Positions 1-16,100 of a DNA stretch of 64,000 nucleotides are shown in pieces. The stretch is from Pseudomonas poae (GTDB lineage: Bacteria > Pseudomonadota > Gammaproteobacteria > Pseudomonadales > Pseudomonadaceae), in NCBI GenBank assembly GCA_004000515.1, contig CP034537.1, forward strand, positions 1,116,001 through 1,180,000, read 5' to 3'. The first letter of the stretch is position 1, and each line of letters starts with the position of its first letter. Made by a program: the position numbers and the translations under genes. The notes under the pieces were generated by a model. That model ran no database searches. It was not told where the DNA came from and was given only the letters and a program-made list of their open reading frames with translations.

Positions 1-2948
1 ACTCATAGCCTTTGTCGGACGTCATGACACGATCCGAGTAGAAACACATCACAGTCTGTCCCATACGCGTGATGAGCGGTGCATCGTAGCTGTCGTCTTC
101 GCTCGCCCAGGTGCAGGTTCGCCAGCCTTTACCGGCAACGTAATAGCTGACGAACGAGGCCGCGTTGTTCTTCTTCTTCAGTGACTTGAATACCCAGTTG
201 TACTTGCAGAATGCAAGTAAGCTGCTTCCATCGGGCAGCGGCTGGATGCTTTCTACTTCGATTCCCTCCGAGAAGTTCGGTGCGTCTTCCCAGCGCAGCC
301 ATGGGCCGTCGAGGTCGGCGGTGCAGAAGATGGCGACCTCGTCGTAGCTGCCGGTCTTTGTAGAGTCGAAAATCAGCCCTTTTTCGACGTAGGAGTACTC
401 CTTGCGCTCCTTGAATCTCCATAGCCACAGGCCGTTGAACCGGATGACCTCTTCAGTTCGGGTGAACTCCCAGCCCTGCGCATCCGGGAAACGGGTCTGT
501 TTCCAGTTCTGCGCATCGCGGGAGTAATAGAACCCGTCGTTGTAACCCGCTATGGCAATCCATATTCCACCCACGAAATACAGCTGGGAGATGGCGGGGG
601 CGTTGTCGGTGGCGCTGAGACGCACGTTCTGCCAGTGCTCTCGATCCAGGCTGCGATACACACGGTTGTCGTGGTCGACGATCAACCACGTGATGCCATC
701 GGTCTTGATGTACTGGATTTTCTCGGGGTCGCAGGGAGGGTGCTGTACCTGACCCCACTCGATGCTGAACAAATGATCCCGGTCATCTTTTTCGATGACG
801 ACCGACTGTTTGGCCAGCTTTTCCTGCTGTTCCTGATGAAGTCGCTCGGCACGCTGCTTTGCTTTGCGCTCAACCACGGACTCGTCGAATCGACCTTCCA
901 TGAATTGCGCGAGCTGTTCGGCCACGTCCGCACAGGCATTTGAAAAGGCACCGAGTGTGTCGTCGAGCTGGCGTTCGAAGTGATTGAACTGGTCGTACCA
1001 GTCTCCGTTAGCTGCGGAGTTGTCCAACTCGAAATCGGCATAGCCGGATTCGTCCTTGAAGGAGATCGCGGGCAGGCCCCAGCGCGCCAGCATGCGATTA
1101 CCCTGGTTCAGCGTGCTGGAATGTCCGGAGATGAACTCGCTGATTTTCTTGCGCATCTCGTTCAGCGAGGACAGGCAGGAACCACGGCCAAGAGTGTAAG
1201 CCGTTCCCTCCACTTTGCTGCTGACCTTGCTCAGGAACGAGTCGTCCCATGCTTCCATGAAGAACGAATAATCAGAGGCTTTCAGGGACGCTTTCGTCAG
1301 ATCGAACGAAAGACTGCTGGCCTCATGACCGACCGTGCGCAGTCTGGCGCGAGCCTCGGTGAAGGTCTGCTCAAAACGCAGCTCGCGGTAACGAACGATG
1401 TTTTTCCAGCCGTTGGTCTGCTGCTGCAACTTCTCGGCAGCCGCAAGCACGTGCTCTTCATCCTGTTCGGTACTGATCACCAGCCCACGGGCGAAGTTTT
1501 CCTTGAACTGTGCGGGCTTGAGCGCGTTCAGGATACGCAGAACATGAGGACCTTCGATCTGTTTCTGGCACAGCGTCAGCAGGTAGAACGCATCGAGTAG
1601 CCAGGTGTAGGTCTTGTCGTCGCCTTTGAGCAGATCCTGCAGGATCGGCAAGTAGTCCTGAACCTTGCGGGGGTTGTCCGCCAGTACTGCGATTTCAATT
1701 GGCACCTGCGGGCACCCGGCCTTGTGCGCCAGCAACTCGAGAAACTCCCGGCCCTGTCTGTTCAATGACGCCGAGTTCTCGATGCACAGAGCGAACAGCA
1801 ACAGGTAGTTGTGTCGGGCGTCAAGATCGTCAATGGTGTCGAAGAAGGTGTGGGAGTGGATGTCCGGCAACGACGACACCAGTGCAACCGGCTCGGCTTG
1901 GGCATCTTCGACGGGTTCGTCGGGCAAGGCGTTAAGACCGTGCTGATCCTTGTAAATCTCCAGAGTCAGCAGGCTGCCGCCGATGATTTCCTCTATCAGG
2001 TCGCGCATCCGGTACTGGGTATAAAGGCCGGAAAACGCCTTGCCAAAGAATCTGGAAATGATTCGCTCGCGCTTCTCGTCGCTGTCACAGACCTCGCCGT
2101 CCGAGATCATGTCGATGATGCGGTCGTACTCGTCGGAGAGGTAATACAGCGAGTTGAACGCCAAACCCGAGATGTTTTTCTGGACGAAGTACGAATCGGC
2201 GACGTGCTCTTCGAACGATAGCTCGATGACCGAGCGGTAGCGTTCGATGCTGGTGGTTTCGATCTGATCGATCAGGTCGATGATGAAACTCAACAGCTGG
2301 ACTTCTTCGTCACAGTCCACGTCCAGCTTTTCCAGCGTGACGATCAGGTGGTTGATGTCTTGCGTGGTCAGCATAACGCCGGGGTGGCTGCGCATGAAGT
2401 CATACGCCAGGTTGAGCACCAGCAGCCCCTTGGGCATCGATTTGTAGCGACGTTTGTTCGCTTCGATGTTCAGCGACCATTGGTGAAAATTGGTGTTGTT
2501 CTCAACCCGGATCAGGCGGCGATTGATCTTGTCGACCGCCACCAAGACGAAATTACGGGTTTCGATGATGTATTCGTTCATCGTGCCAAGGTTGTTGCGT
2601 ATCACCGCAATACTCTGGGCGTTGATCAGGTTCTGCTGCTGCAGTTGCTTGAGGTAGTGCCATGCGAATTTCTGCATGTGCAGCGCGTCAACCTGGTTCT
2701 GCAACTGGTTCTGGCGATTCTTGCCGCTGAATGCACCGGCAAACCGCTTGAAGAATCCGCTCTCGGCTTGTTGTTTCAGGCGTTCCTCGCTGCACGTGAC
2801 CAGCCGTGAAGCATCCACTGCCAGTTGCTGGGTTAGCGCTGCGTTGTTCTGGTGCTGGGCAACGAGCGCCTCAACCGCTTCCCTGCTCCGAGGCGTTCAG
2901 AGGTTGATTGAAGATTTCCTGAGGTGCTGCTTCGACCGTTTCGCTCAT
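1..2948 (-). CDS. Large uncharacterised protein, helical region then BNR/propeller-like repeats (3' end outside window, one frame break)
   Basis: I do not recognise this family. About 980 residues are visible and the reading frame runs open off the left edge. The start is the ATG at 2948, with an AAGG-type ribosome site, 12 bases after the stop of the gene before it. From that ATG the frame stops after 25 codons. Removing one G from the GGG run (plus-strand CCC at 2881-2883) joins it to the long frame, which has no stop down to base 1. Residues about 23-690 look helical, with glutamine/glutamate-rich coiled-coil stretches near 30-140 and 680-710. From about 720 on, repeats of the type G-x-W-x-x-A...Y-x-S-x-D-x-x-x-W (for example FYYSRDAQNW) resemble BNR/YCF48-like beta-propeller blades. 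No signal peptide or membrane segment is seen. It is probably co-transcribed with the upstream gene and the WYL regulator. The domain calls are inference. Confidence 0.7.
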
Positions 2949-2960
2949 TGAAAATATGCC

Positions 2961-4376
2961 TTAAAGATTATCGATCAGGTTCTTCAACTGTGTGCTTTGG
3001 GCTGCCATGGTCTTGACCTGGCCAGCAAAGTGGCGCTCGGACAAGTACAGGCCCTTGTGAAATTCGGCATAGAACGACTGCGACATCTGCAGGTATTCCA
3101 GCGAGTCATGCATGATCATTGCGTTACCCACCACGTGTTCGGAGGCGGTCAGCGTCAACCGGAAACTTTTCTCGATGTGGTTGTCGATAGCGATGCTCAT
3201 GGCCATCGTGGTGATCAGGCCGCCGATAATGCCGCCCACCAGCGCACCGATCGGTCCACCGAGAGCGCCCACTGCAGCGCCCACCGAGCTGCCGACGACA
3301 GCTGCACCAGTCTGCAGTAAATTGTGGCCCGTTCGGGTTTCCAGCTCTTCGCTTGTGATCTTGCCCGCGGCAAACAGCACCACGTTCTGCACCACGTCCA
3401 CGGCACATACCGCAGCAGCAGCCACACCATTGTTGGCGAAGGTGCGCTTGAACGCCGAGCCCGCGAACAGGGCAGGCAAATTGCGTGCTGTGATGCTGAC
3501 CGTCGCAGTCGCGATGCCTGCCTTCAGCGCGCTGTCACCGGCGGCGATTGCGGTGTTTTGGAGAATCTGGAAAGTCGCTTGCTCCACCGTGATTTCGCCG
3601 TCGCGGACGTGTTTGATCGACTGGAAAGTATTAATACTGCCCGCGATCACCGTAGTGATGACAGCTGCCGAACCTGCCGCGTGAAGGCTTTGTTGAACGG
3701 TGGCCTTGTTCAGGTAACCGTTCTGCATCTTTTCATGCAATTGCTTGCCTGCCTCGGTGCCGCTGCCCAGATGCTCGGCGTCCCGTTTGCCCAGAGGCGT
3801 TGACTGAACGCCCTCGACATCGAGGTTGCCCGTCGTCTTCTCGCGAACCTTTTCGGCGGCATTGGCCACTTCCGGCCGCGTTTGCTGGTTTCTCTGCATG
3901 TCTCGTTTGGCCGCTTCCTTGATCTGTTCGATCTGATCTGCAGGCCCGATGAATGCATCACTGTCCTGATACTGATGAATGCCGTCTTTCGTGGATCTGA
4001 ATGCCTTCTGCGTGGCATTGCCATTCTTGAAATATTTCAATTGCGCTCCGAGCAGTTGCTCGTCGCCCTTCATGACCACGATATCGTGGGTGATGTGATT
4101 CTTCGCCAACGGGGTGTTGGTGAAGTTGTCAGTGAAGGCGCGGACTTCCTTGTCCTTGAGGATCGCGTCCAGGTTGAATGATTCGGCGTGCCATGTCTCA
4201 GCGGCGAACCCACCTTTGATCGCGCTGTTTTGCGCGGTTCCGGCAATCTTGTCGATGATGGCGTTCGCGTGATTGATTTCGCCCAGCATGTGGCCAATCT
4301 TTTCCGACGCCTGGGTGGGCCAAATCGGGCAGAGGCTGACTGAGCTGTTCAATGCCTTTTTACGTTGGTTGTCCAT
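2961..4376 (-). CDS. Uncharacterised 471-aa protein: nuclease-like N-terminal motif plus glycine-zipper hydrophobic region
   Basis: Family not recognised. The ATG at 4376 is preceded by GGAAG at good spacing. Residues 55-125 contain an ordered set of polar residues: E60 in GGFAAETWH, D98 in HDIVV, and Q112/K114 in GAQLKYF. This resembles a degenerate PD-(D/E)XK nuclease core of the D...QxK type. Residues 228-250 and 315-335 are hydrophobic, and 355-395 is a glycine-zipper stretch (GxxxG repeats, e.g. VGALGGPIGALVGGIIGG) of the kind that packs in membranes. The C-terminus is helical. It lies between a WYL regulator (55-base gap) and the large downstream protein (12-base gap), suggesting one transcript. 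A membrane-active or nuclease effector is possible, but this is inference from motifs only. Confidence 0.8.
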   Translation of the reverse strand: MDNQRKKALNSSVSLCPIWPTQASEKIGHMLGEINHANAIIDKIAGTAQNSAIKGGFAAETWHAESFNLDAILKDKEVRAFTDNFTNTPLAKNHITHDIVVMKGDEQLLGAQLKYFKNGNATQKAFRSTKDGIHQYQDSDAFIGPADQIEQIKEAAKRDMQRNQQTRPEVANAAEKVREKTTGNLDVEGVQSTPLGKRDAEHLGSGTEAGKQLHEKMQNGYLNKATVQQSLHAAGSAAVITTVIAGSINTFQSIKHVRDGEITVEQATFQILQNTAIAAGDSALKAGIATATVSITARNLPALFAGSAFKRTFANNGVAAAAVCAVDVVQNVVLFAAGKITSEELETRTGHNLLQTGAAVVGSSVGAAVGALGGPIGALVGGIIGGLITTMAMSIAIDNHIEKSFRLTLTASEHVVGNAMIMHDSLEYLQMSQSFYAEFHKGLYLSERHFAGQVKTMAAQSTQLKNLIDNL

Positions 4377-4431
4377 GGAGCTTCCTTGGCATCATCTAGA
4401 TACAGAGGCTTGATCGGCGCGCTGTCGGGCA

Positions 4432-5457
4432 TCAGGTGCTTGTTGAGACGGCGTCGCAATAGAGGGTTCGCAAGTTGTTCAACTTCTGGCTGATCTCATC
4501 GACCCAGACCTGTGGCGCATGGACCCGAATGTTGTCGTTGAGCCCAAAAATCCACCAAAGCGTGTCCCGGTCTAGCGACACTTGAGCGTGCAAGCGTTTC
4601 CAGCTGTGGTCAGGGAGGTCGCTGAGGCTCTGCACGCTGCTCAGCGGTGTCTCACTGAGCAGGGCGGCGATCTGCGGGTGAACGTCGGCGACCAGTTCGA
4701 CCTGCGCATCGGCTTGTCGATGGTTGAAAATCCCTGTGTCGATGTAGTCGTCGACGTCGAACGTGGCGTGCAACTCCGCCACTTCATCCAGCACCCTGAC
4801 CTCGCGAATGCGATGCAGGGCGAACTGGCGAAGATCGTCGTAGCCGTCAACCGATGCCACCAAGTAGCTGATGGCGTGTCGCGACACCAATCCGGCGGGG
4901 TGCAGACGGAACTGCTTGAGTTCGCTTTTGCTGCGGCTCTGATACGCCACTTCCAGTTTCCGGCGCTCCAGCAAGCCGGTTGAAACCTCACTCCAGACCT
5001 GCGGTGCAATGCTGGCAGGCAGTAAGGTTTTTCCGTTGGGAACCGTTCGGACCCGCTTTGCCCAATCCGCCAGGCCGTTGTTACCCAGACCGCCCAGAAA
5101 ATTTCGGGCGCGCCTGAATTGGGGGCCGAGCTGGTCCAGAACAGCTTGCGGGAGCAGTGTGGTGAGATGTCGTTCGGAGAGGTAGAGCGCCAGCGCTGTC
5201 GGGGTGTCCATGTCTTCCAGTTTCAGCGGCGCGTCGCGGGTAAAACTCCAGCGGAAGGGGGTTTCACTGTCGTCGCACTGCAGCGAGAAGGGAATGGACA
5301 ATCGGTTCAGATCGCGCTGAACGGAGCGCAGCGTCACGGAAAAACCCTTGTCCCGGAGCTTTTCCAGCAGAGTCGAGGTGGCGATGCGCTGCGGCTCGGT
5401 GGGCATCAGACGCAGCAATGCGAACAGCCGCAGGAGCGTATCCTTCGCTTGAGACAT
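4432..5457 (-). CDS. WYL-domain transcriptional regulator (YafY type)
   Basis: 341 residues. The N-terminal 60 residues form a winged helix-turn-helix (LLEKLRDKGFSVTLRSVQRD, followed by LNRL). The C-terminal half is a WYL domain (about residues 140-240) containing HPAGLVSRHAISYLVAS and a DLRQFALHRIREV strand, followed by a WYL C-terminal extension ending near residue 335. WYL proteins of this layout are ligand-responsive DNA-binding regulators. Relatives such as BrxR and CapW control anti-phage systems, but many others do not. It lies directly upstream of the two uncharacterised genes and on the same strand, so it probably regulates that cassette. The start ATG at 5457 has AAGG upstream. Confidence 0.9.
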   Translation of the reverse strand: MSQAKDTLLRLFALLRLMPTEPQRIATSTLLEKLRDKGFSVTLRSVQRDLNRLSIPFSLQCDDSETPFRWSFTRDAPLKLEDMDTPTALALYLSERHLTTLLPQAVLDQLGPQFRRARNFLGGLGNNGLADWAKRVRTVPNGKTLLPASIAPQVWSEVSTGLLERRKLEVAYQSRSKSELKQFRLHPAGLVSRHAISYLVASVDGYDDLRQFALHRIREVRVLDEVAELHATFDVDDYIDTGIFNHRQADAQVELVADVHPQIAALLSETPLSSVQSLSDLPDHSWKRLHAQVSLDRDTLWWIFGLNDNIRVHAPQVWVDEISQKLNNLRTLYCDAVSTST

Positions 5458-5626
5458 GGCAACTACCTTGTAAGCCGATTCAACGGATGGTTGCCATTCT
5501 GGCGCCAGCGTAATGTCGATGCTACGGGATTGGATGGCTCAGTGCCATCTTTCATGTTTGCCATACCACTAAAGTCTCGACATAGAGGGCGGGGATTTTC
5601 AAAAGGACGCAGTTGTCTGCGCCGGT

Positions 5627-6010
5627 TCAAGCGCGGGAACGGCGGCTCTGGGCATCGCGTTTGAGATCGCTGTACTCGCGATAAAACGCGTAGCTTTTCT
5701 GCAGAACGACACACAATCCGATCACTGCTAGCAGGTTTTTCATAAGGGGCGCCTTGTTTTCATTCATTGTCTTCAGTAGGGCGACAGGTGTGTCGCGCCC
5801 TATCTCGTTGTTCAGGGCCAGAAATTCTTCCAGACGTGCCTTCAGCACCTCTTTGTGGGTCGCTTCCCGGTATCCGAGCGGCAGGTCATGGCAAGCCGGG
5901 CAACGCGTGGGAGGCGGCAAAACGGTCAGTCGTGAATCACACCAAGGCAAGACGGTCGTTTTCCAGGAGCATTCGGGACAGACAAGAGTGAGAGGGAGTG
6001 AGATGAGCAT
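5627..6010 (-). CDS. Small zinc-ribbon protein with C-terminal membrane segment
   Basis: 127 residues, hypothetical. The ATG at 6010 is chosen over an upstream in-frame ATG at 6076 because a perfect AGGAGG lies five bases before it. C11-x2-C14 and C37-x2-C40, with a further C24, form a likely zinc ribbon (LVCPECSW...TRCPACHD). Residues about 90-107 (LLAVIGLCVVLQKSYAF) are a possible single transmembrane helix, followed by a basic tail (RRSRA). It is on the same strand as the WYL regulator, with a 169-base gap, so it may be the first gene of the cassette or separately transcribed. No function is proposed. Confidence 0.65.
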   Translation of the reverse strand: MLISLPLTLVCPECSWKTTVLPWCDSRLTVLPPPTRCPACHDLPLGYREATHKEVLKARLEEFLALNNEIGRDTPVALLKTMNENKAPLMKNLLAVIGLCVVLQKSYAFYREYSDLKRDAQSRRSRA

Positions 6011-6015
6011 GGCGA

Positions 6016-6021
6016 CCTCCT
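6016..6021 (-). promoter_or_regulatory. Ribosome binding site AGGAGG deciding the start at 6010
   Basis: The complement of CCTCCT reads AGGAGG five bases before the ATG at 6010. No comparable site precedes the upstream ATG at 6076. Confidence 0.75.
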
Positions 6022-7002
6022 GCAATCTTCGGTGCTGCAAGATTGCTTTGCGGGGGCGACAGCACATGTCGCTCATCCACAGGCGCTGAGCAGGGAAGGG
6101 GGCGGAGCGGGCGATTAACTGAACTAAACAGCCACCGTTTTATGTTTTTTCGCCAAAACCTGCCTATAGAGGCCGCTCTGGTTGGGGAGTAGTCTGCTCT
6201 TGACCTTCGGTCCAGAGCGTTCACGTCGACACTCTCGGCAGCAGCCGTAGCGTGAACATCTTCGTAAACATCCGCGGATTCGTGACTGGCAGCTTTTGGC
6301 TGTGGATTCAACCTGTCGCCACAGGCAGATTTTGGCGGGTTCCTGCCTATCCTCTACGGAGGGAATGATCGACAACGTTCGAACTCAGGAGTTTTACATT
6401 CCGTATGCGGCTCTGAATTACTTGCAAACCGACAACGTGCTGACATATCAAGAATCCCGAGTTCGATTCCACCGAACGCCATAACTAGCTGATTTTTTTA
6501 TAGTTACTAGTTGGGGTACGCCGAATTTTCCACCGAAATCCAGACGCTCGAAAAACCTGGCCTCACCGAAACAGACCGTTCGTCTGGTGCCGCCATACAA
6601 GACAAAGCCCCTGCAGAAACTCAGGGACTCTGTCATTTCTGGACTGTTTGCATTTTTGCCTCTATCCGCCTCTAAAAGTCTCTTCTCACCAACCGAACAG
6701 TCTTTTCGATAAAAACGACTATTCCTCTCGTCTTTATTCCAAATCATGAACTGGCAATAATTCTGACCCACCCATAAAAATCATAATTTCATGAACTGCC
6801 AACTCGACCACCCGAAAGTGCCGAGAAAAACCCTCCCATCAACATTCCCGATTGCTCCCCATCCCTCACCACGCTACTCTCCCGCCGTCGCTGCCAATTC
6901 AGCGATCGGGCCTGAGAGCCCGGCAAGATGCAGGCGCCACAGCGCCGCCCATTCGCACGATTACGAATGTGGTAGCTCTCACTCGATATGGGAGTTTTAC
7001 CG
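6022..7002. other. Intergenic region without a convincing gene
   Basis: About 980 bases. The open frames here (minus 5937-6311 and minus 6448-6771) lack family resemblance, good ribosome sites and typical codon bias. At 6440-6483 the plus strand carries a tRNA-3'-end-like stretch (GTTCGATTCC about 14 bases before a CGCCA) followed by a T-run at 6493-6499. The T-arm does not pair properly, so it is at best a remnant. A short CCCTG/CAGGG hairpin lies near 6604-6621. Base composition is more AT-rich than in the flanking genes. Confidence 0.5.
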
Positions 7003-7349: not shown

Positions 7350-8718
7350 TCACCGCGCCAGCATAAACGTCTCATACTCCAAATCTTCCAGCGTCGACGA
7401 CAGCCGCGCCAGTCCCAGCAACACACACCAGCAGCGACAACGTAAACCCATACCCAAAGAAACTCGGCCCCAGGTGCATGCTGAGCAGTGTCAGGGCGCC
7501 GTTGAGTACGGCGAACAGTACGCACAGTTCCAGCACCACGCGGCGTTTGTCGAGGTAGAAGAACACGTTGAGCAATGCCATGAACACTACCTGGATGCTC
7601 ACGCCGATCAGGTCGATGTAGAACAGGGGCAGGTAGTAGCTGGAGATGCCGATCCATTCCAGCAGGCGCGGGGCGAAGAGGAACAGCAACACCACGGTGA
7701 GGCCCTGGACCTTGCAGATTTCCAGCAGGCCTTGGCGGATCGACAGGGTCATTTCGGTTTTCAGCGAGCCGATGTGCTGCAAGGTTTCGCCGTCGCGAAT
7801 GGCGCGGAACAGTCGGTCGTACCATTCGGCAAAGTCGGTCTCGATACGTACCAGGAACACGGCCATGCCAGGGATGATCGCCAGGTAGGCGATGAAGATG
7901 GGCATGTCGTACAGGATCGAGGCGCGCAGCGGGCCGATGACGGCGTTGGAGGTGCCGGGGTTGAACCAGAACAGGATCTTGTCGACCCAGATGCCGAAGT
8001 TGTAGAAGAACCCGGTCACCAGCAGGCTGAGGAAGACGTTACGACGATTGAGGAAATCGAAGGCAATCATCTTCTCGGCACGGTATTCGCGCAGGATGTC
8101 GTACAGGTACAGGAACAGCAGGCTACCGTGCCCGATCAGCAATGCCAGCAACAGGCCGGGCATCTTCAGGAAGCTCAGCGCGTAGGCGCTTGCGACCATC
8201 AGCGCGTAGCCCACCACCATGACCATGAGGATGCGGTTATATTTTTTCATCCCCGACAGGAAGATGATCACCAGCCACAGGTTGCACAGCACCACGAAGT
8301 TCGACAGCACCAGCACACGGTAGATCAGCGGCTGGTCGAACAGCAGCGCCAACACAATGACCCCCAGCACGCCGGCGCCAATGGTGACTAGCAGCAACAC
8401 GCCCAGCAGGTTGGGCAGGATCTGCTCGTACTTGTGCTCGAACAATTGGTCGGACACAAACCGGGTAAAGAACAACTGCAGGCCACCCGTCAGGATCAAC
8501 GAGCTGGCCATCAGGTACGTCACCGTGACCAGGAACTGCCCCACCAGTGAGTTGGGCAATAGCAGGCCCAAGCTGATGATACCCACCAGCATCACGCTGA
8601 TGATCGACAGCACCCACGGCCCGGAGCTGATCAAGCCGGCGTACACATACGCGTGCAGCGTGGCGGTGTATGAGTCGCGCGAGAGGATCTTGCGCAGTTC
8701 GAAGCCAATACCGGCCAT
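7350..8718 (-). CDS. pelG: PelG, inner-membrane Pel polysaccharide transporter (one frame break)
   Basis: About 455 residues with roughly 12 transmembrane helices, in line with the usual PelG length of about 456. The N-terminus MAGIGFELRKIL is typical. PelG is the polytopic inner-membrane component that, with PelD, PelE and PelF, forms the Pel synthase/export complex. As read, the frame ends at 7372 with an untypical tail. Removing one base from the AA/TT pair at 7420-7421 restores a C-terminus reading LGLARLSSTLEDLEYETFML and a stop at 7350. Its ATG follows the pelF stop immediately (TAAATG), so it is translationally coupled. It is the last gene of the operon. Confidence 0.93.
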
Positions 8719-10233
8719 TTAATTGTTCTCCATGGCTGCTTGGTACAGGTCGCGATAGCGCTGCAGCATCAAGGCTTCGGTGTAGTAACGGTTGACCCGC
8801 AACAAGCCGCTGGCCTGTGCAGCCTTCCAGCGCTCGGGGCTGCGCAGCAGTTCGAGGATGGCAGCCGATGTGGCCTGTGGGTCAGCAATCGCCACCACCT
8901 TGCCTGCGATGCCCAGGTCGCGGTCTTCGGCGCTGCCGCCTTCGATCAATTCGCGGCACGAGCCGACGTCGCTGCTGATGACCGGCGTACCGGCGGCCCA
9001 GGCTTCGAGGATCACCAGGGGTTGTGCCTCGCTGATCGAGGTCAGCACCATCAGGCCCAGTTTCGGCAGGATGTCCTGGATGCGTTGAAAGCCCAGGAAG
9101 TGCACCCGGCCTTCAAGCCCAAGGCTCGCCATCAAGCTGCGGCATTCGCTGACGTATTCCGGGTCTTCCTCTTCCGGGCCGACGATCCAGCCCTCGGCGT
9201 GCGGCATGGCGCTGATCACGCCGCGCATGGCGCGCAGGAAGGTCTTCACGTCTTTGATCGGCACCACACGCCCGATCAACCCAACCACGGGCGCGATGCC
9301 CGGCTCGCGGGTTTCCATGGCGCTGGCCCACTGCGACAGGTCGATGCCGTTGGCGATCAACTGCGTGCGAGCGGGGTCGGCACCGTCTTTGATCTGGCGC
9401 TGACGGTTGCCGTCATACAAGGCAATGATGTTGTCGGCACTGTTGTAGGCCAACTGGCCGATCCGTTCGAAGTAGCGCACCCACAGGGTACGGATATACC
9501 CCGAGCCACCGTCGAGGCTGCGGTTCAGCGCCTGGCCGGAGCTTTCGGCGATCCACGTGGCCTGGGCCAGGTCGATCTTGCGCTCCTTGGTGTAGATGCC
9601 GTGTTCGCTCAGCAGGTACGTGCACTTCCAGCGATGCTTAAGGATGCACCCCAGCAGCCCGGCGTAACCGGTGGAAATGGAGTGCAGTACCCGCGCTGGC
9701 GGCATCTTGCGTGAGGCTTCGGCGAGCATCAGCAAAGGCGACTGCAGCGAGCGCAGGGTCCAGAAATAGTTGACGAAGGATGGGTCGGCGCAGTGCTGGC
9801 GGTAGCCTTCGCTGAGGGTTTCCCAGCTGGCGCGGCTGCGCAGTACGTCATCAAGGGTCATGTGGCCCTCGGCGATGCAATTGAGCATGCGCTCACCCAG
9901 CTCCCGCTCGGGCTGGTCCGGGTGATGCAAAAAGCGATACAGGTCGGCCAGCTGTTGCGGGTCGGCATCACGCGGCGTGCCGCGGGTGTCGGTGGGGTGT
10001 GTCGCGTCCTCCAGGAACATCTCTTCGATGTGCAATACGTTCGCGGGAATCTCGTAGCGCCGCGAGGTATAGGCCGAGCGCTGGCCGCCGATGAACATCA
10101 CCGAAAAGGTCAGTTCCGGCAGGCCGAGGATCATCTGGTGAATCCAGCTCGATACGCCGCCACGCACGTACGGCCAGGTGCCTTCCAGCAACAGGCAGAT
10201 ATCGGCCGTCGGTGTCGCTTCCTTATGATTCAT
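8719..10233 (-). CDS. pelF: PelF, cytosolic GT4 glycosyltransferase of Pel synthesis
   Basis: 504 residues, close to the family's usual length. It starts with LLLEGTWPYVRGGVSSWIHQ, the donor-side glycine-rich N-terminal signature of PelF. The C-terminal Rossmann half has the retaining GT4 E-x7-E motif in SEAQPLVILEAWAAGTPVIS and an IGRVVPIKDVKTF loop. PelF polymerises the amino-sugar backbone from UDP-linked precursors in the cytosol and works with PelD/E/G. The start overlaps the end of pelE by 11 bases. The gene reads without interruption. Confidence 0.96.
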   Translation of the reverse strand: MNHKEATPTADICLLLEGTWPYVRGGVSSWIHQMILGLPELTFSVMFIGGQRSAYTSRRYEIPANVLHIEEMFLEDATHPTDTRGTPRDADPQQLADLYRFLHHPDQPERELGERMLNCIAEGHMTLDDVLRSRASWETLSEGYRQHCADPSFVNYFWTLRSLQSPLLMLAEASRKMPPARVLHSISTGYAGLLGCILKHRWKCTYLLSEHGIYTKERKIDLAQATWIAESSGQALNRSLDGGSGYIRTLWVRYFERIGQLAYNSADNIIALYDGNRQRQIKDGADPARTQLIANGIDLSQWASAMETREPGIAPVVGLIGRVVPIKDVKTFLRAMRGVISAMPHAEGWIVGPEEEDPEYVSECRSLMASLGLEGRVHFLGFQRIQDILPKLGLMVLTSISEAQPLVILEAWAAGTPVISSDVGSCRELIEGGSAEDRDLGIAGKVVAIADPQATSAAILELLRSPERWKAAQASGLLRVNRYYTEALMLQRYRDLYQAAMENN

Positions 10234-11218
10234 TCCAGCTCCTCACCAACTCAGCGAAGGGTGGCCGCTGGCGGGTTTTTTCCGGAAGGCTGGCGAGCAA
10301 CCCGGGGATTTCGTGATAGCGACCCGCCTCAAAGGCCAGTTCGGCATGGAAGGGCAGCAATTGCGCGGCGCCTAGACCGTTTCTCTCCGCTTCGTGCAAG
10401 AGGGCTTCGGCTCGCTCATTCTCACCGCGCTCCAAGGCAATACGGCCCGCCAGCAACAGCAACTCACCGCCCTCGCCCGCCGCCAGGCCCTGCTCGGCGT
10501 GTTCACTGGCTTGGTTCAAAACGTGCTCAAGCACACTGCCTTGGGCAAGGCCCAGGTAGGCCAACTCCCAATACCAGCGCGCCAACATGCTGTGCACCGG
10601 GCCCGCGGCTCGCGGGCTCACGCCGGCCAATTGTTCGAGGGCCATCTGGATGTGCAGGTTGATGTCGCTTTCCTGCTTGTCGAGCATCGAGTACGCCAAG
10701 AGACGTACGTCATCGCTGGGGTCACCCAAGGCCAACTTGAGGATAGGCACGGCGTCCTTGCCCGGCATGCGTCGCGTCGCCAACAAAGCGGCCAGACGTT
10801 GATCGGGGTTCGGCGCGTGACGCAGCACATCCTGCAAACCGCCGTCGGCGAAGATCGGCGTGCGGGTCTGGGCCTGCGCGCGGAACGGCAGGTCTGGGAT
10901 GCCAACGGCCTGCCAGGCTTGCTGGTCGCGTTTGCGCGGCAGGTACAGCGCCGGGAAGATCGACGCCACCACGCCCAGCGTACCGATGACCGGCACGAAG
11001 AACGCCAGGCTGAAAATGAACAACGGGCTCCACGGCAGCGGCGCACGGTAGCGCGCCGGCAGCAACAGCCAGACCGCGCCGCTGAGCATCACGCAGGCGA
11101 GGCCGTGACTGAAGGTGAACACCAACAGTTGGTGCAACTGCGGTGCGTCGAGCCACAAACTGGCCCAACTGCCCGCCTCTAGCAACACGGCGCCGCTAAA
11201 CAGCCACTTGCTGATCAT
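10223..11218 (-). CDS. pelE: PelE, inner-membrane TPR component of the Pel complex
   Basis: 331 residues. The N-terminal 100 residues hold two to three membrane helices (ISKWLFSGAVLLEAGSWASL, WSPLFIFSLAFFVPVIGTLG). The remainder is helical and repeat-rich, with TPR-like units (LAQGSVLEHVLNQASEHAEQ, NERAEALLHEAERNGL). PelE helps assemble the PelDEFG synthase complex. It overlaps pelD at its start (23 bases) and pelF at its end (11 bases), as expected of a tightly coupled operon. Confidence 0.93.
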   Translation of the reverse strand: MISKWLFSGAVLLEAGSWASLWLDAPQLHQLLVFTFSHGLACVMLSGAVWLLLPARYRAPLPWSPLFIFSLAFFVPVIGTLGVVASIFPALYLPRKRDQQAWQAVGIPDLPFRAQAQTRTPIFADGGLQDVLRHAPNPDQRLAALLATRRMPGKDAVPILKLALGDPSDDVRLLAYSMLDKQESDINLHIQMALEQLAGVSPRAAGPVHSMLARWYWELAYLGLAQGSVLEHVLNQASEHAEQGLAAGEGGELLLLAGRIALERGENERAEALLHEAERNGLGAAQLLPFHAELAFEAGRYHEIPGLLASLPEKTRQRPPFAELVRSWNES

Positions 11219-12571
11219 TCAGGCCACACTCGTTGTAAAGGAAGTTACGCAGCCCGTTGCGATCACAGCCAGGCTCCAGGTTGAAAGGCATGACCCGCAC
11301 ACCCAGGCTGTCCAAATCGGTGTCGATGCCAAAGTGTTCGTGCAACAACAGGCCGATACGCGCGAGGTAGCCTTGGGTGCCTTCCGGACTGGTCAACGGC
11401 AACAGCACCAACAGCAGATGGTGGTCGCGGTTGTTGCGCACCGGCAGGTGCAGGTCCAGGCCACGCTGGCTGCGCTCCATCAAGCGCGTCAGTTCGTCGT
11501 TGGCACGCGTCATCTCGAACGCGAACAACCCGGCTGGCAAGGTGTGCTGTTCCACATCCACCAGCGAACGCTTGAGCTGCAACGTGAATTGCTGGGCATC
11601 CGCATCGGGCAGGCTCAGCACTTGCGGATCGCGGCGCAGCAGGTCGGCGATGTGGCCGGCCAGCAGCGACAGGAGGCTCAACGTACGGTCCTGGAACGCG
11701 AAGAACGGCATCTGCCGCACCGCCAGGATCGCCAGCAAACGGCCTTCCGCGTCGATCAACGGGATGCAGGCCTGCAACGATGAGAACTGCGCGGAGTTAC
11801 CCGAGTCGATCAGTTCCTGACGCACGCTGACCAGCTCGCCACGCTCCAGGCACAGCTTGATCAAGCCGTCGTCGGTGCCCAATGGGCCCATGACGCCGAT
11901 CATGGCCAAGGCCTGCGGCAGTACATTTTTTCGCTTTCGTCGACGCGGTACAAGCCCGCCACGCGCAAGGCGCCGTACTGGCCCAGCATCGCCACGATCG
12001 GTTCTGCCAGCTCGTTCAGCGCATCGCCTTCGACCGACATGCCGCGCAGTTTTTCCCGCAGGCCCAGCAAGGAGCTGCGCAGGCTCTGGTCGCTGCCGGC
12101 AACACGTTGCTCCAACAGGTCGTGGGACACCCGCAAGATCTGGTGGGCACGGGTGAATTCGTCGAGACGGTACTGACGGTATTCGTTGGCCATTTGCAGA
12201 CGCTCCAGACGGCGTACCCACAAGTCGCGCACCTCACCGACCAGCATCCCGCACACCAGCACACCCACGATGAAAGACGGCTCCAGTTGGGTGTAGCCCT
12301 CATGCCCGCTGTAGCGCAACGCGAACAACGCGGCCACCAGCAAAGCGGCGCTGAACAGGCCGCGCACAAAACCGTAACGCACACCCAACAGCAGCGGCGC
12401 CAGAATCGGCCAGGGGAAACCACCGTGCATCTGCAACGGGTCTTCGGGGGTCAGCCAGAAGCCAAGACCAATGGCCAACCCCGTCACCAGAAGCGTTTCC
12501 AGCCAAGACACCGGCCCGCTGGCGCGAGGCGCCAGGCTGTAATCCATGTGTGGAGAATTCATTGCGTTCAC
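11196..12571 (-). CDS. pelD: PelD, membrane c-di-GMP receptor of the Pel complex (one frame break)
   Basis: 458 residues after repair, matching the family. The N-terminus has about four membrane helices (WLETLLVTGLAIGLGFWL onward), then a GAF domain and a degenerate GGDEF domain. The inhibitory-site-like R-G-L-D (in MERSQRGLDLHL) is the RxxD motif by which PelD binds c-di-GMP, so allosteric control of Pel synthesis appears to be kept. The frame breaks at an A-run (plus-strand T6 at 11926-11931). Seven bases restore DESEKNVLPQALAMIGV. The stop overlaps the pelE start and the ATG overlaps the pelC stop. Confidence 0.95.
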
Positions 12572-13086
12572 TCGAACCGAAGGGCGCCAACAAGTTTGTC
12601 GATAACCGTCTGAGCATTGCCCGCCAGGCTTTCACGGGACCAGCCGGCGCGCGCGCCACTTTTGCTCCAGAGCACGCGACCGCTGTTGGCTTCCAATACC
12701 CGCAGGCTGATGCCGACTGCCGGCTCGCCGTCCAGGCCATTCTTGTACTGCCACTCTTCCACGCTACCGGCCACCACGTAATCGAGCTTCTGCTCACGTG
12801 CCCATTCAAGGGCGCCGTTCAGGCGCTCGTTGTCGTCCATCAGCGCTTGCTCGCCCTGGGTGCTGGTTGGGTACACGCGCGGTTGCAGGCCGTGGCTGCT
12901 GAGCACGCTGAGCAGGATCTGCTCGCTGCGCTCACCGGCTTGCGGGGTCTGGGAATAGTTGACCATCGGCACGATGCCCCACTGCGCGTTGCGCGGCAGG
13001 TTCGGGCTGTTTTCACTGGTGAAGCTTGAGCAACCGGCGACGAACAGTACTGTCAGAGCCAAGCTCAGGTTACGAATTGCTTGCAT
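12568..13086 (-). CDS. pelC: PelC, outer-membrane lipoprotein of the Pel exporter
   Basis: 172 residues with a lipoprotein signal (LSLALTVLFVAGCSSF; lipobox VAGC). The family forms a 12-subunit ring at the periplasmic face of the outer membrane and guides cationic Pel to the PelB pore. The domain is of the CsgG/TolB-N kind with a conserved acidic face. It ends with an ATGA overlap onto pelD and begins 26 bases after the pelB stop. Confidence 0.95.
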   Translation of the reverse strand: MQAIRNLSLALTVLFVAGCSSFTSENSPNLPRNAQWGIVPMVNYSQTPQAGERSEQILLSVLSSHGLQPRVYPTSTQGEQALMDDNERLNGALEWAREQKLDYVVAGSVEEWQYKNGLDGEPAVGISLRVLEANSGRVLWSKSGARAGWSRESLAGNAQTVIDKLVGALRFE

Positions 13087-13112
13087 AGGTTTTTCTCCCG
13101 TAGATTCTGTAA

Positions 13113-16100
13113 TCAGCGCCCGAAACGCACGCCGTAGCTCATACCCAGTGTGCCGCCGGACTTGCCATCTCCGCCCTGTGGCGCAGATTGGTAACCGAAG
13201 GTGAGGGCCAGTTCGTCATCACCCAGCACTTCGAAGCCGACCCCGGTGTTGATGCCGTAGTTAAAGGTTTGGTCCGTCCATTGCCAGCCTGCCGTCATGT
13301 CCACCAACCAGGTGTATTGCGGCTTGCTGCGCACCAGGGCGCCCGGTATGCCGCGACGCCAGGTGGTGCCGACGTAGAGTTGGCCGTAGCGGCTTTGCAG
13401 TAGGTCGCCAGCGGTAACGGTTTCCACGTCGAGCGGATCCAGCGCGCCGGTATCCGGATCAGTCGACTGAGGGGTGATCTTGATCGGGCCACCATTACGA
13501 CTGGAGAGGTAGTCCAGGTCACGATCCTTCACATTGTTCTTCTGGTAATCCACACCGCTGCGTACGGTCCAGTTAGGCCCGGCGAATTCCAGCGTGTGGT
13601 TCAACTCCAGCTTCACGGCCTGGCCGGTGCCCAGGGAATCCCCGGCACGGGTCGAGAACGAACGCTGCGCCACTTCCCAGCTCAACTGGTCACGTGCGGT
13701 CAGGCCATGACGCCCACCGACCCAAGCCCGGTCCTGCTCGCCAAAGGCGCGCATGTAGCCGCTGTCATCGCTCTTGCGATGCCAGTCCAGGCCGGTCTCG
13801 ATCTGGTGGCTGGAACCCAATTGCCACATGCGCGACAGGCCCAAGCCGTTGCGGTCGTTGTCCTTGCGCTGGCTGGTGTCGGCAAACAATTTCCAACTGC
13901 CGTTTTCCACCGAGCGAACCAGGGTCAGGGCGGCGTTGCTCTCGTCACCGATCCTCGATGAGATCACATCGTCGCCTTTGTAGTTACCGTGTTCCACCTC
14001 AAGGTCCGCGTACCATTTGTCACCCAGGTTATGGGCGATTTCCAGGCGCGGCGAATCAAACGAGAGGCCACCAAAGTCTTGCTTCTGGTACGACAACAGC
14101 GCGCCTTGCGGTGTGCTTTCGTGAATCTCCACGGCCTGGCGACGCAGCTGTTCGCGCACTGCCTCTGGCTGGTCGTCACCGAGTGCAGACAGGTTGGTTT
14201 CCAGGGCCTCGTTGTTACGTCCCAAACGGCTGAGTGCCTGGGCACGTTGCGCAGGGTTCAAGTCGCTGCTGGCCAACAGGGTTTCGACCTGGGCTTTATT
14301 GCGGCTGCGCAGGGCTTCCTGGATCTGCTCGTAGCGGTCGACCTTGATGCCTTGGGTACGCGCCCATTTCAGCCACTCGTCTTTCTGGGCCTCCTGATTA
14401 GTCGCATCCAGGCGGGCCAGCAAACGCTCGAACCACAACTGCAACATGGCTGGCGAGCCGTCTTTCCACTGCGCCACTTGCTGTTGCGCCATGCGCGGCG
14501 AGTAACTGCTGGCCATCAGGCGCAGCCAGGTGGTGTAGCGCTGGCTGGTCGGTTGGACGTTCTGCGCCTCAGGGCTGCGTAGCAGTTTCAAGCGCAGACG
14601 CTGAGCCGCGTCTTCATAACCGGCGCTGTACAACGCGTCTGCGTACGCAGCCTGCACCAGCCAATCCTGCTTGTTGCTTTTGAGGTACATGCGATACCAG
14701 GCCAGGGACTCCGTGTCGCGGCCAAGCATCTGGCTGGCACTAGCGAACGCCAGCCACAGCACCTGATCCTCCCGGGCGTAGGGCTTCCATTGGGTCAGCA
14801 ACGGCTTGAGCTCAGCCGTGTTGCCCTGGTCCACATAAAGCCACATCAAGCGCTCACGGAAGAGGTTGTCATCGGGGTACATCGCCAGCCCTTGCAGGTA
14901 TAGGCGCTTGGCCTCTTCAGGCTGACCCTGCTGCATGGCTAATGCACCGCGAACAGCCAGCACCTGCGACTGCTCGTAGAGCGCCGGTTGGTCCTCGACC
15001 CCTTGAGCAGTGTGCTGATCTGGTCCCAGTCTTCCAGTTCCTGAGCGAGCAGCAATGAATCCACCAGACGCAGCGGATTTTTCGTACGCTCCCAACTGGC
15101 TACCAGCAACTGCAATGCGCGTCGGGGATCCTTGGTGCGGTAGCTGGCGATCAGGTGTGTCTCGTCGTTAGTGTTGAGCGAGCCTTTGATTTCCAGGAGT
15201 TTTTCGAGGGAGTCTCGCAACTCATCGTCAAGCTCCAGATCCCAGGCCACAGCGGCGCGGGTGGTCCAGTAGTCCGGGTCGGTATGGGTTTTGCGGCCAG
15301 CCTGCAGCACGCTCCACGCTCCCTGATTATCAAACAGCTTCAGGTACGCGTTGGCGTAATCGACTTGTTCGGTGGACGTGAGCGAGAAGCGCTTGGAAAA
15401 ACCTTTGTAGACCGGAATACGCTCGGCGTACTTGCCCGTGTTTTCCAGGTTTTGCAGTAGGCGCACCCACGCCAGACGGTGCATCGGGTACTTGCGCAGA
15501 TAGTTGCGTAGCCAACTTTCGGCTTGTTCCGGCGTACCTCGCGATTCGTGCCCGTAGATCAGGGCATCGAGCTCGACGTCGGTCAGCGCACGTTGATCCT
15601 GGATTTCCGACAACAAGCCAATGGAGCGGTCGAAATCGAATTGCATGCTCGCCAGGCGCCATGAATGCTCACGCACTTCCGGCGTTTCATGCAGGCGCAA
15701 CAGGCGGATCCAGTAAGTCAGCGCAGTTTCGCTTTCGCCGCGCCATTCGGCCAGGTGCGCCATTTGCTCCAGCAATTGCTGGTCTTCGGGAAACTCGTCG
15801 ACCAATGCTTCGCCAGTCTTCCAAGCACCCTCCAGGTCGTTGAGCCCCAATCGCAGGCTGAAATCCTTGCGCAACACCAGCGGGTTATCCGGTTGCAATT
15901 CGCCCCACTTCTGGATAAACCGCTGCGCCAAATCGTAGTGCTTGGTGCCGATCGCCACGTCGACGCCCTGTTGAACCAAGGCCGCATCGGTTTGCGGGTC
16001 CTTGAGTTCGTCCAGCTCATCGGCGAGCACCTGCACCGCTTGCTCGCCACGGTCGGCAGACAACAGGCTATCGAAGGCCAACCGTGCGTATTCGCGGCGC

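Follow-up and report, generated by a model that had tools for sequence, protein, structure and literature searches.

The question raised by this locus is whether four neighboring genes at the left edge of a 64,000-nucleotide stretch of the Pseudomonas poae genome (contig 1, bases 1,116,001-1,180,000, in a two-contig genome of 7.5 Mb; hereafter the window) belong to a system of genetic conflict, and which of them make up its core. The genes lie on the minus strand and encode, in gene order, a zinc-ribbon/transmembrane protein, a WYL transcription regulator, a protein of 471 amino acids (aa) that we call N471 and a large protein that we call BIG, with intergenic gaps of 169, 55 and 12 bases. A previous sequence-only reading had given the same layout and had recognized no known system in it; both statements hold, with Pfam, NCBIfam and PADLOC returning no acceptable family for N471 or BIG. 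We find that N471 and BIG form a constant gene pair which is rarely present and which occurs at different sites, and on balance we lean towards interpreting it, from comparisons of sequence, as a mobile WYL-regulated two-gene conflict module, most likely anti-phage and of an effector-sensor type not previously described. The features referred to below, in window coordinates, are as follows:

1..2818, continuing to -253 outside the window, minus strand: BIG open reading frame as it stands, 1,023 aa, predicted helical body and C-terminal propeller
2819..2948, minus strand: 43 N-terminal codons of the BIG relatives, in another frame here (frame break or sequencing error)
1928..2818, minus strand: BIG-N, conserved, predicted helical N-terminal domain (portion past the frame break), common to DUF726-linked and patatin-dynamin Vibrio proteins
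1..802, minus strand: BIG C-terminal propeller, window portion (remainder left of base 1), from model and structure search
2961..4376, minus strand: N471, putative effector, 471 aa
3927..4226, minus strand: N471 residues 51-150, nuclease-like region with E60, D98 and Q112-x-K114, from alignments
3177..3326, minus strand: N471 residues 351-400, hydrophobic glycine-zipper region, from conservation (Pfam match sub-threshold)
4432..5457, minus strand: WYL/WCX transcription regulator, 341 aa, from Pfam
5627..6010, minus strand: zinc-ribbon and transmembrane protein, accessory gene of the Pseudomonas form, from relatives
6584..6600, unstranded: imperfect copy of a tRNA-Thr 3′ end, right border of an 8.46-kb stretch missing from the related genome G017, from genome comparison

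The pairing was followed over 19 loci, comprising the window, two Cronobacter IncFIB plasmids, 14 contigs from a scan of genome contigs and two further genomes of the genus; a distant Paenibacillus match was excluded from this set. N471 lies directly upstream of BIG, on the same strand and 5-12 bases away, in all 19 (the spacing is approximate in L025, BIG runs off the contig in L022, and both genes are broken in L026), and the two genes are never found apart. The loci come from Gamma- and Betaproteobacteria and are partly non-independent, with WYL proteins that are 99% identical between L018 and L039 and 83% identical between L011 and L012. The most similar named locus to the window cassette in the contig scan is from Pseudomonas citronellolis. 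Sequence searches returned at least 238 proteins related to N471 and at least 215 related to BIG (120 listed for each), with Pseudomonas, Vibrio, Shewanella, Aeromonas, Cronobacter, Klebsiella, Burkholderia and Duganella among the named sources; most are annotated as hypothetical, and no housekeeping family was matched. Neither of the outcomes that the sequence-only reading had named as refuting its view was thus seen.

N471 is of nearly uniform length, exactly 471 aa in most of the 120 listed relatives, and the mean column identity among 18 aligned members is 80%, with the highest conservation in residues 51-150. All 49 aligned sequences, including the Paenibacillus protein at 26% identity, have E60, D98, Q112 and K114 in this region. 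Seven deeper relatives all retain E60 and K114, and six of them D98; at position 112 six have Q, and a copy embedded in a BREX locus has E, which gives the classical ExK. E-D-(Q/E)xK is the pattern of PD-(D/E)xK nucleases and of the restriction-endonuclease-like signature, and Mrr nucleases use QxK; the catalytic residues of PD-(D/E)xK enzymes are thus conserved in N471. Hydrophobic segments are found at residues 230-248, 316-341 and 358-398, the last with regularly spaced glycines. Both the nuclease-like motif and the glycine zipper that had been noticed in the single window protein are conserved in its relatives, and judged from these alignments N471 joins a PD-(D/E)xK-like signature to a putative glycine-zipper region. 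The Pfam models for glycine zippers and zinc ribbons give matches only below cut-off, and N471 has no match among PDB sequences. Matches to residues ~331-406 in other proteins were put down to glycine-zipper similarity and were not counted as relatives, nor were matches in G1163 and G1045, which by eye lie in pilus-assembly-like gene clusters. We also noticed an 802-aa protein (L093:1609-4017) which has only the glycine-zipper stretch in common with N471, which has similar frames in Burkholderia-family genomes, and which by eye we take to resemble a phage tape-measure protein.

From the layout of a membrane-inserting or nuclease effector beside a sensor-like scaffold, the sequence-only reading had also considered a contact-dependent system, and a secreted, contact-dependent or polymorphic toxin acting with a partner is one rival for the locus. 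It can draw on a sub-threshold SpvB match (E = 0.19) and on the occurrence of glycine zippers in unrelated proteins too, but by Pfam and NCBIfam none of the four genes carries a domain for secretion or delivery, and no constant small immunity gene was noticed in the gene lists, from which small genes may be missing. We regard this rival as very improbable indeed.

A close examination of BIG changes the picture of the large gene in the window. The frame that begins at the start giving the 12-base gap, from which the gene had been taken to be open, stops after 25 codons, and the 1,023-aa open reading frame starts at a GTG at 2818 in a different frame; extended leftward, the gene is completed at -253, that is, 253 bases past the window. 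The relatives of BIG, the nearest of which is 98% identical, are open for about 1,066 aa, and therefore the window copy is either broken near its N-terminus or affected by an assembly error there. Intact copies exist in relatives. The window sequence was left unrepaired, and the 98%-identical homologue P0121 stood in wherever full-length BIG was required. The AlphaFold2 model of P0121 (mean predicted local distance difference test score, pLDDT, of 82) supports the C-terminal propeller that had been suspected from repeats, and the best PDB match of this region in Foldseek is a YCF48 propeller (5ojp, E = 3.6e-7, 14% identity); against the viral library, BIG gave propeller matches only, among the matches listed. 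The fold search was informative for residues 710-1065 with little coverage elsewhere, and we therefore make no claim on the fold of the helical part. BIG is thus modeled as a conserved helical N-terminal domain followed by a helical middle and a C-terminal propeller. A TerB reading of the middle was kept as a faint similarity only (hhalign probability 23, hmmsearch E = 0.003). One BIG homologue of 1,487 aa, P0222, carries a C-terminal TPM domain (E = 8e-36).

The pair is rare. Full-length BIG occurs in 5 of 249 genomes of the genus (own genome included), with 31-residue remnants of its C-terminus at 84% identity in two more (L043:10001-10093 and L044:3319-3411). Full-length N471 was found in its own genome only among 398 genomes of the phylum, and in its own and one other among 398 genomes of the family. 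Searches centered on known carriers returned 4 of 398 genomes, none of them new, and 1 of 196, the center itself. The full-length pair is present in only 2 of 72,556 plasmid records, and a distant DNA search of E. coli gave no match to window 2500-6010. A housekeeping role is disfavored because the pair is rare. A phage-borne origin was rejected as well, with no match in 50,697 phage records and 17 viral-contig pattern matches, none of them encoding a relative.

Comparison of the window with seven other Pseudomonas loci shows DNA similarity stopping at or near the cassette edges, and therefore the sites differ. In G017, the 3′ end of a tRNA-Thr (tgt) is joined directly to the equivalent of window position 6584, and the 8.46 kb from -1873 to 6584 that holds the cassette is missing. 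This stretch has as its left border the tRNA-Thr 3′ end, which lies beyond the window at about -1875, and as its right border the imperfect copy of that end at 6584, and its GC content is 0.559 as compared with 0.59-0.60 in the flanks. By its sequence it has the anatomy of a tRNA-anchored island, and a deletion in G017, instead of an insertion in the window genome, is a possible origin of the difference. No integrase was recognized among the open reading frames of the stretch, which were inspected by eye and not by profile search. Not far from this junction, G017 carries another insert, of ~6 kb, at the place that corresponds to window 6794-6864. Close to the right border, about 195 bases within window 6400-6600 are a dispersed repeat, of which genome G022 has at least five copies at 92-95% identity. 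Damage is seen in three loci, namely in BIG of the window, in the fragmented L026, and in L040, where a gene for a protein with an integrase core domain sits within the WYL gene.

Another rival is a selfish stabilization (addiction) device of plasmids and islands, in which N471 would be a toxin neutralized by BIG and the pair would be kept because its loss is costly. The tightness of the pair, its carriage by Cronobacter plasmids and the tRNA-end stretch would all fit, yet this would require an antidote of about 1,066 aa, the full-length pair is all but missing from the plasmid records at the count given above, and living genomes tolerate damaged copies. We consider this explanation quite improbable.

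As for the regulator, the WYL domain of the window protein lies above the Pfam cut-off (E = 1.5e-14) and WCX just under it (23.6 vs 23.9 bits, E = 6.7e-5), which bears out its identification as a WYL transcription regulator. A WYL gene adjoins the pair in 16 of the 19 loci, and belongs to one of three dissimilar types that are ~24% identical to each other or give no significant match: the window type in eight loci, a second, co-directional type in five (L011, L012, L023, L025 and, in pieces, L026), and a third, divergently transcribed type in three (L020, L021 and L027). No WYL gene adjoins the pair in L014, L022 and L024. The zinc-ribbon gene lies upstream in all eight loci with the first WYL type and was undetected in the remaining loci tested (L012 excluded). 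Recurrence as a unit, which the sequence-only reading had put up for checking, is thus upheld for N471 and BIG and largely for the regulator, but the zinc-ribbon gene is part of the Pseudomonas form of the cassette only and not of its core. Its open reading frame spans 5627-6076, with the start most likely at 6010 as judged from relatives. Just before this start, window 6022-6046 contains a perfect 8-base-pair inverted repeat with a 9-base spacer that looks operator-like; as an operator it was rejected, being unconserved in seven related loci. No sigma-70-like site was found in window 4300-6600.

Recognizable defense genes lie next to the pair in some loci. In L014 (Vibrio), a DruE-like protein (E = 2e-98) and a NERD/UvrD helicase (E = 1e-32) are encoded directly upstream, and in L024 (Giesbergeria) DruE-like and UvrD genes are again upstream, with two small genes between them and the pair. 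From one locus to the other, the DruE-like and UvrD proteins share only 35.5% and 41.8% identity, and therefore do not represent one recent copy. Among the proteins selected for scanning, a type II restriction-endonuclease-like protein is found ~7 kb from the pair in L018 and a Zac-like pair near L021, and by Pfam a UvrD-like helicase follows BIG in L040. To the right of the window cassette, 7372-15095 carries genes which resemble a pel exopolysaccharide operon.

Further evidence comes from relatives of the two proteins that occur with other partners. In G813, a genome of the window's family, a 466-aa N471 relative (25% identity) overlaps a 193-aa gene inside a BREX locus, where it sits downstream of brxC between pglX and abiEi-abiEii-pglZ-brxL. 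A small partner followed by an N471-like protein is also found in Paenibacillus, on a Butyrivibrio plasmid and, shortened and beside IS3, on a Peptoclostridium plasmid; the small partners are mutually related, some of them weakly. Three of the distant N471 relatives match the PADLOC candidate PDC-M09B, the best being that of Paenibacillus (E = 3e-11, residues 40-396). A Polaromonas plasmid (L110:5845-11167) encodes an N471-like protein that is longer at its C-terminus; after it come two uncharacterized genes and a helicase that matches MkoA of Mokosh (E = 4.7e-101), and an Acinetobacter soli plasmid (L013:8013-13164) has a related gene set with the N471-like gene split. In G1339, a 509-aa N471 relative precedes a 1,001-aa AAA protein that matches PADLOC IetA (E = 1.1e-20), possibly merely as an AAA ATPase.

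The N-terminal domain of BIG also has settings of its own. It makes up most of a 454-aa Vibrio protein (profile 37-330, E = 1e-32), and a BIG-N-like protein of 454-456 aa is encoded directly after a DUF726 hydrolase on a Vibrio cyclitrophicus plasmid (L109:5000-7314) and in another Vibrio genome (L117:5798-8088). The 454-aa protein was matched in 4 of 192 genomes of the genus Vibrio, in one of them through its own BIG. Two Vibrio genomes encode large proteins that contain a weaker relative of the domain (hmmsearch E = 3e-8 and 4e-8, hhalign probability 95); in that of L118, the one scanned with Pfam, this relative is placed between patatin and dynamin domains. These large proteins belong to clusters (L118:1915-11781 and L119:2721-14672) of a WYL regulator 28-30% identical to the window type, a dynamin-like GTPase, the large protein, one or more TerB genes and another dynamin-like gene, of which no description was found in the literature searched. 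One and the same domain of BIG thus accompanies various membrane-active enzymes, N471 likewise occurs with several partners, and the DUF726 and patatin-dynamin settings together with the varied partners of N471 indicate an exchange of partners on both sides. We put forward, tentatively and with less assurance than for the module itself, that the domain defines an undescribed family of adaptors in bacterial immunity, which would couple exchangeable sensors to exchangeable membrane-attacking effectors. The pairings would be a propeller sensor with N471 and a short helical partner with the DUF726 hydrolase, alongside the patatin-dynamin fusions found in the WYL-controlled clusters of Vibrio; N471 would be a mobile effector with at least four kinds of partner.

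The same Vibrio clusters give substance to a module for envelope, metal or DNA stress instead of immunity, in which the WYL protein would sense a metabolite, BIG would be a scaffold and N471 would act on damaged membrane or DNA. In both clusters TerB and dynamin genes occur alongside the BIG-N relatives, a TPM domain is joined to one BIG homologue, the middle of BIG has its faint TerB-like similarity, and WYL regulators also serve stress regulons. Such a role is harder to reconcile with the rarity of the pair, its unrelated sites, its location at a tRNA end and its damaged copies, or with the BREX-embedded and DruE-linked relatives, and we hold it to be rather unlikely.

For the conflict module that we prefer, we infer nuclease activity, membrane insertion, sensing by the propeller and a phage trigger. 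BIG would restrain N471 and, probably by way of its propeller, detect damage or a product of infection, its N-terminal domain serving as the coupling piece; once triggered, N471 would cut nucleic acid and/or insert into the membrane and so halt the infected cell, and to judge from sequence the module is probably abortive. The WYL protein would keep the pair quiet until a ligand appears, and the zinc-ribbon/transmembrane protein would be a Pseudomonas add-on. A WYL-controlled effector beside a sensor-like scaffold, as the sequence-only reading had proposed from layout, thus gains from the constant pairing, the recurrent WYL genes, the mobility, the DruE-like and UvrD genes of L014 and L024, the BREX- and Mokosh-linked relatives and the other membrane-active partners of BIG-N, but its contact-dependent variant does not.

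Several observations weigh against this interpretation. The window's own copy may be dead, the AlphaFold2 model of N471 is poor (mean pLDDT 42), D98 is unaligned in one of the seven distant relatives (L090), and N471 itself matches neither PDC-M09B nor any other PADLOC family up to E = 1. No defense gene was recognized in the window's own flanks. With matches counted up to E = 1e-10, the flanks of 17 loci (112 proteins) match 84 PADLOC models as compared with 11 for 13 control regions (also 112 proteins), but the best 25 of the 84 derive from two proteins each, largely through cross-matches of helicases, and the control regions also matched AbiLi, AbiLii, AriA and a DinG; the tallies name no loci, and we therefore claim no overall enrichment. 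The TerB and dynamin genes near BIG-N relatives and the TPM fusion also fit a stress role, and the lack of matches in the phage and viral-contig collections neither helps nor excludes an anti-phage function. If the interpretation is correct, the pair is a two-gene immune module that is rare but extends across Gamma- and Betaproteobacteria and is missed by the PADLOC library used, and its two protein families, each with more than 200 matches, would follow a logic of effector and sensor exchange that reaches the Firmicutes. The propeller and the exchangeable partners also offer concrete, testable ideas on the trigger.

No description of the N471-BIG pair was found in the open-access literature, most subscription papers lying outside the search, and the name PDC-M09 was likewise not found in the open-access literature searched. 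Of the known systems, PDC-M09B is similar in being matched by the three distant N471 relatives, and differs in the partner, which is BIG for N471 and a small protein for the matching relatives. The DruE-like and UvrD genes that precede the pair in L014 and L024 resemble those of Druantia; however, a DruE-type helicase is present beside only 2 of 17 case loci and absent from the window locus and the other flanks scanned, and N471 and BIG match no PADLOC Druantia model. The best Foldseek match of the BIG C-terminus likens this part to YCF48 propellers. According to PMC9122601, BrxR-type WYL regulators serve defense islands, and the window's WYL and WCX regulator similarly adjoins a conflict-like locus; the N471-BIG pair differs in being served by three dissimilar WYL types, and a phmmer search of the window regulator against PDB chains, solved BrxR-type regulators included, gave no match at E = 0.01. 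A single-protein defense gene that combines an Mrr-family nuclease with a seven-bladed propeller, as described in PMC9519451, offers a precedent for the combination. Compared through this description and the PADLOC scan, N471 and BIG differ from it in splitting the nuclease-like and propeller parts over two proteins and in adding a glycine zipper and a large helical body. BREX genes (pglX, pglZ, brxC and brxL) are found only around the distant relative in G813, and none of the four window genes matches the BREX families of PADLOC; the BREX-embedded N471 relative agrees with the auxiliary PD-(D/E)xK effectors that PMC12839542 reports from BREX loci.

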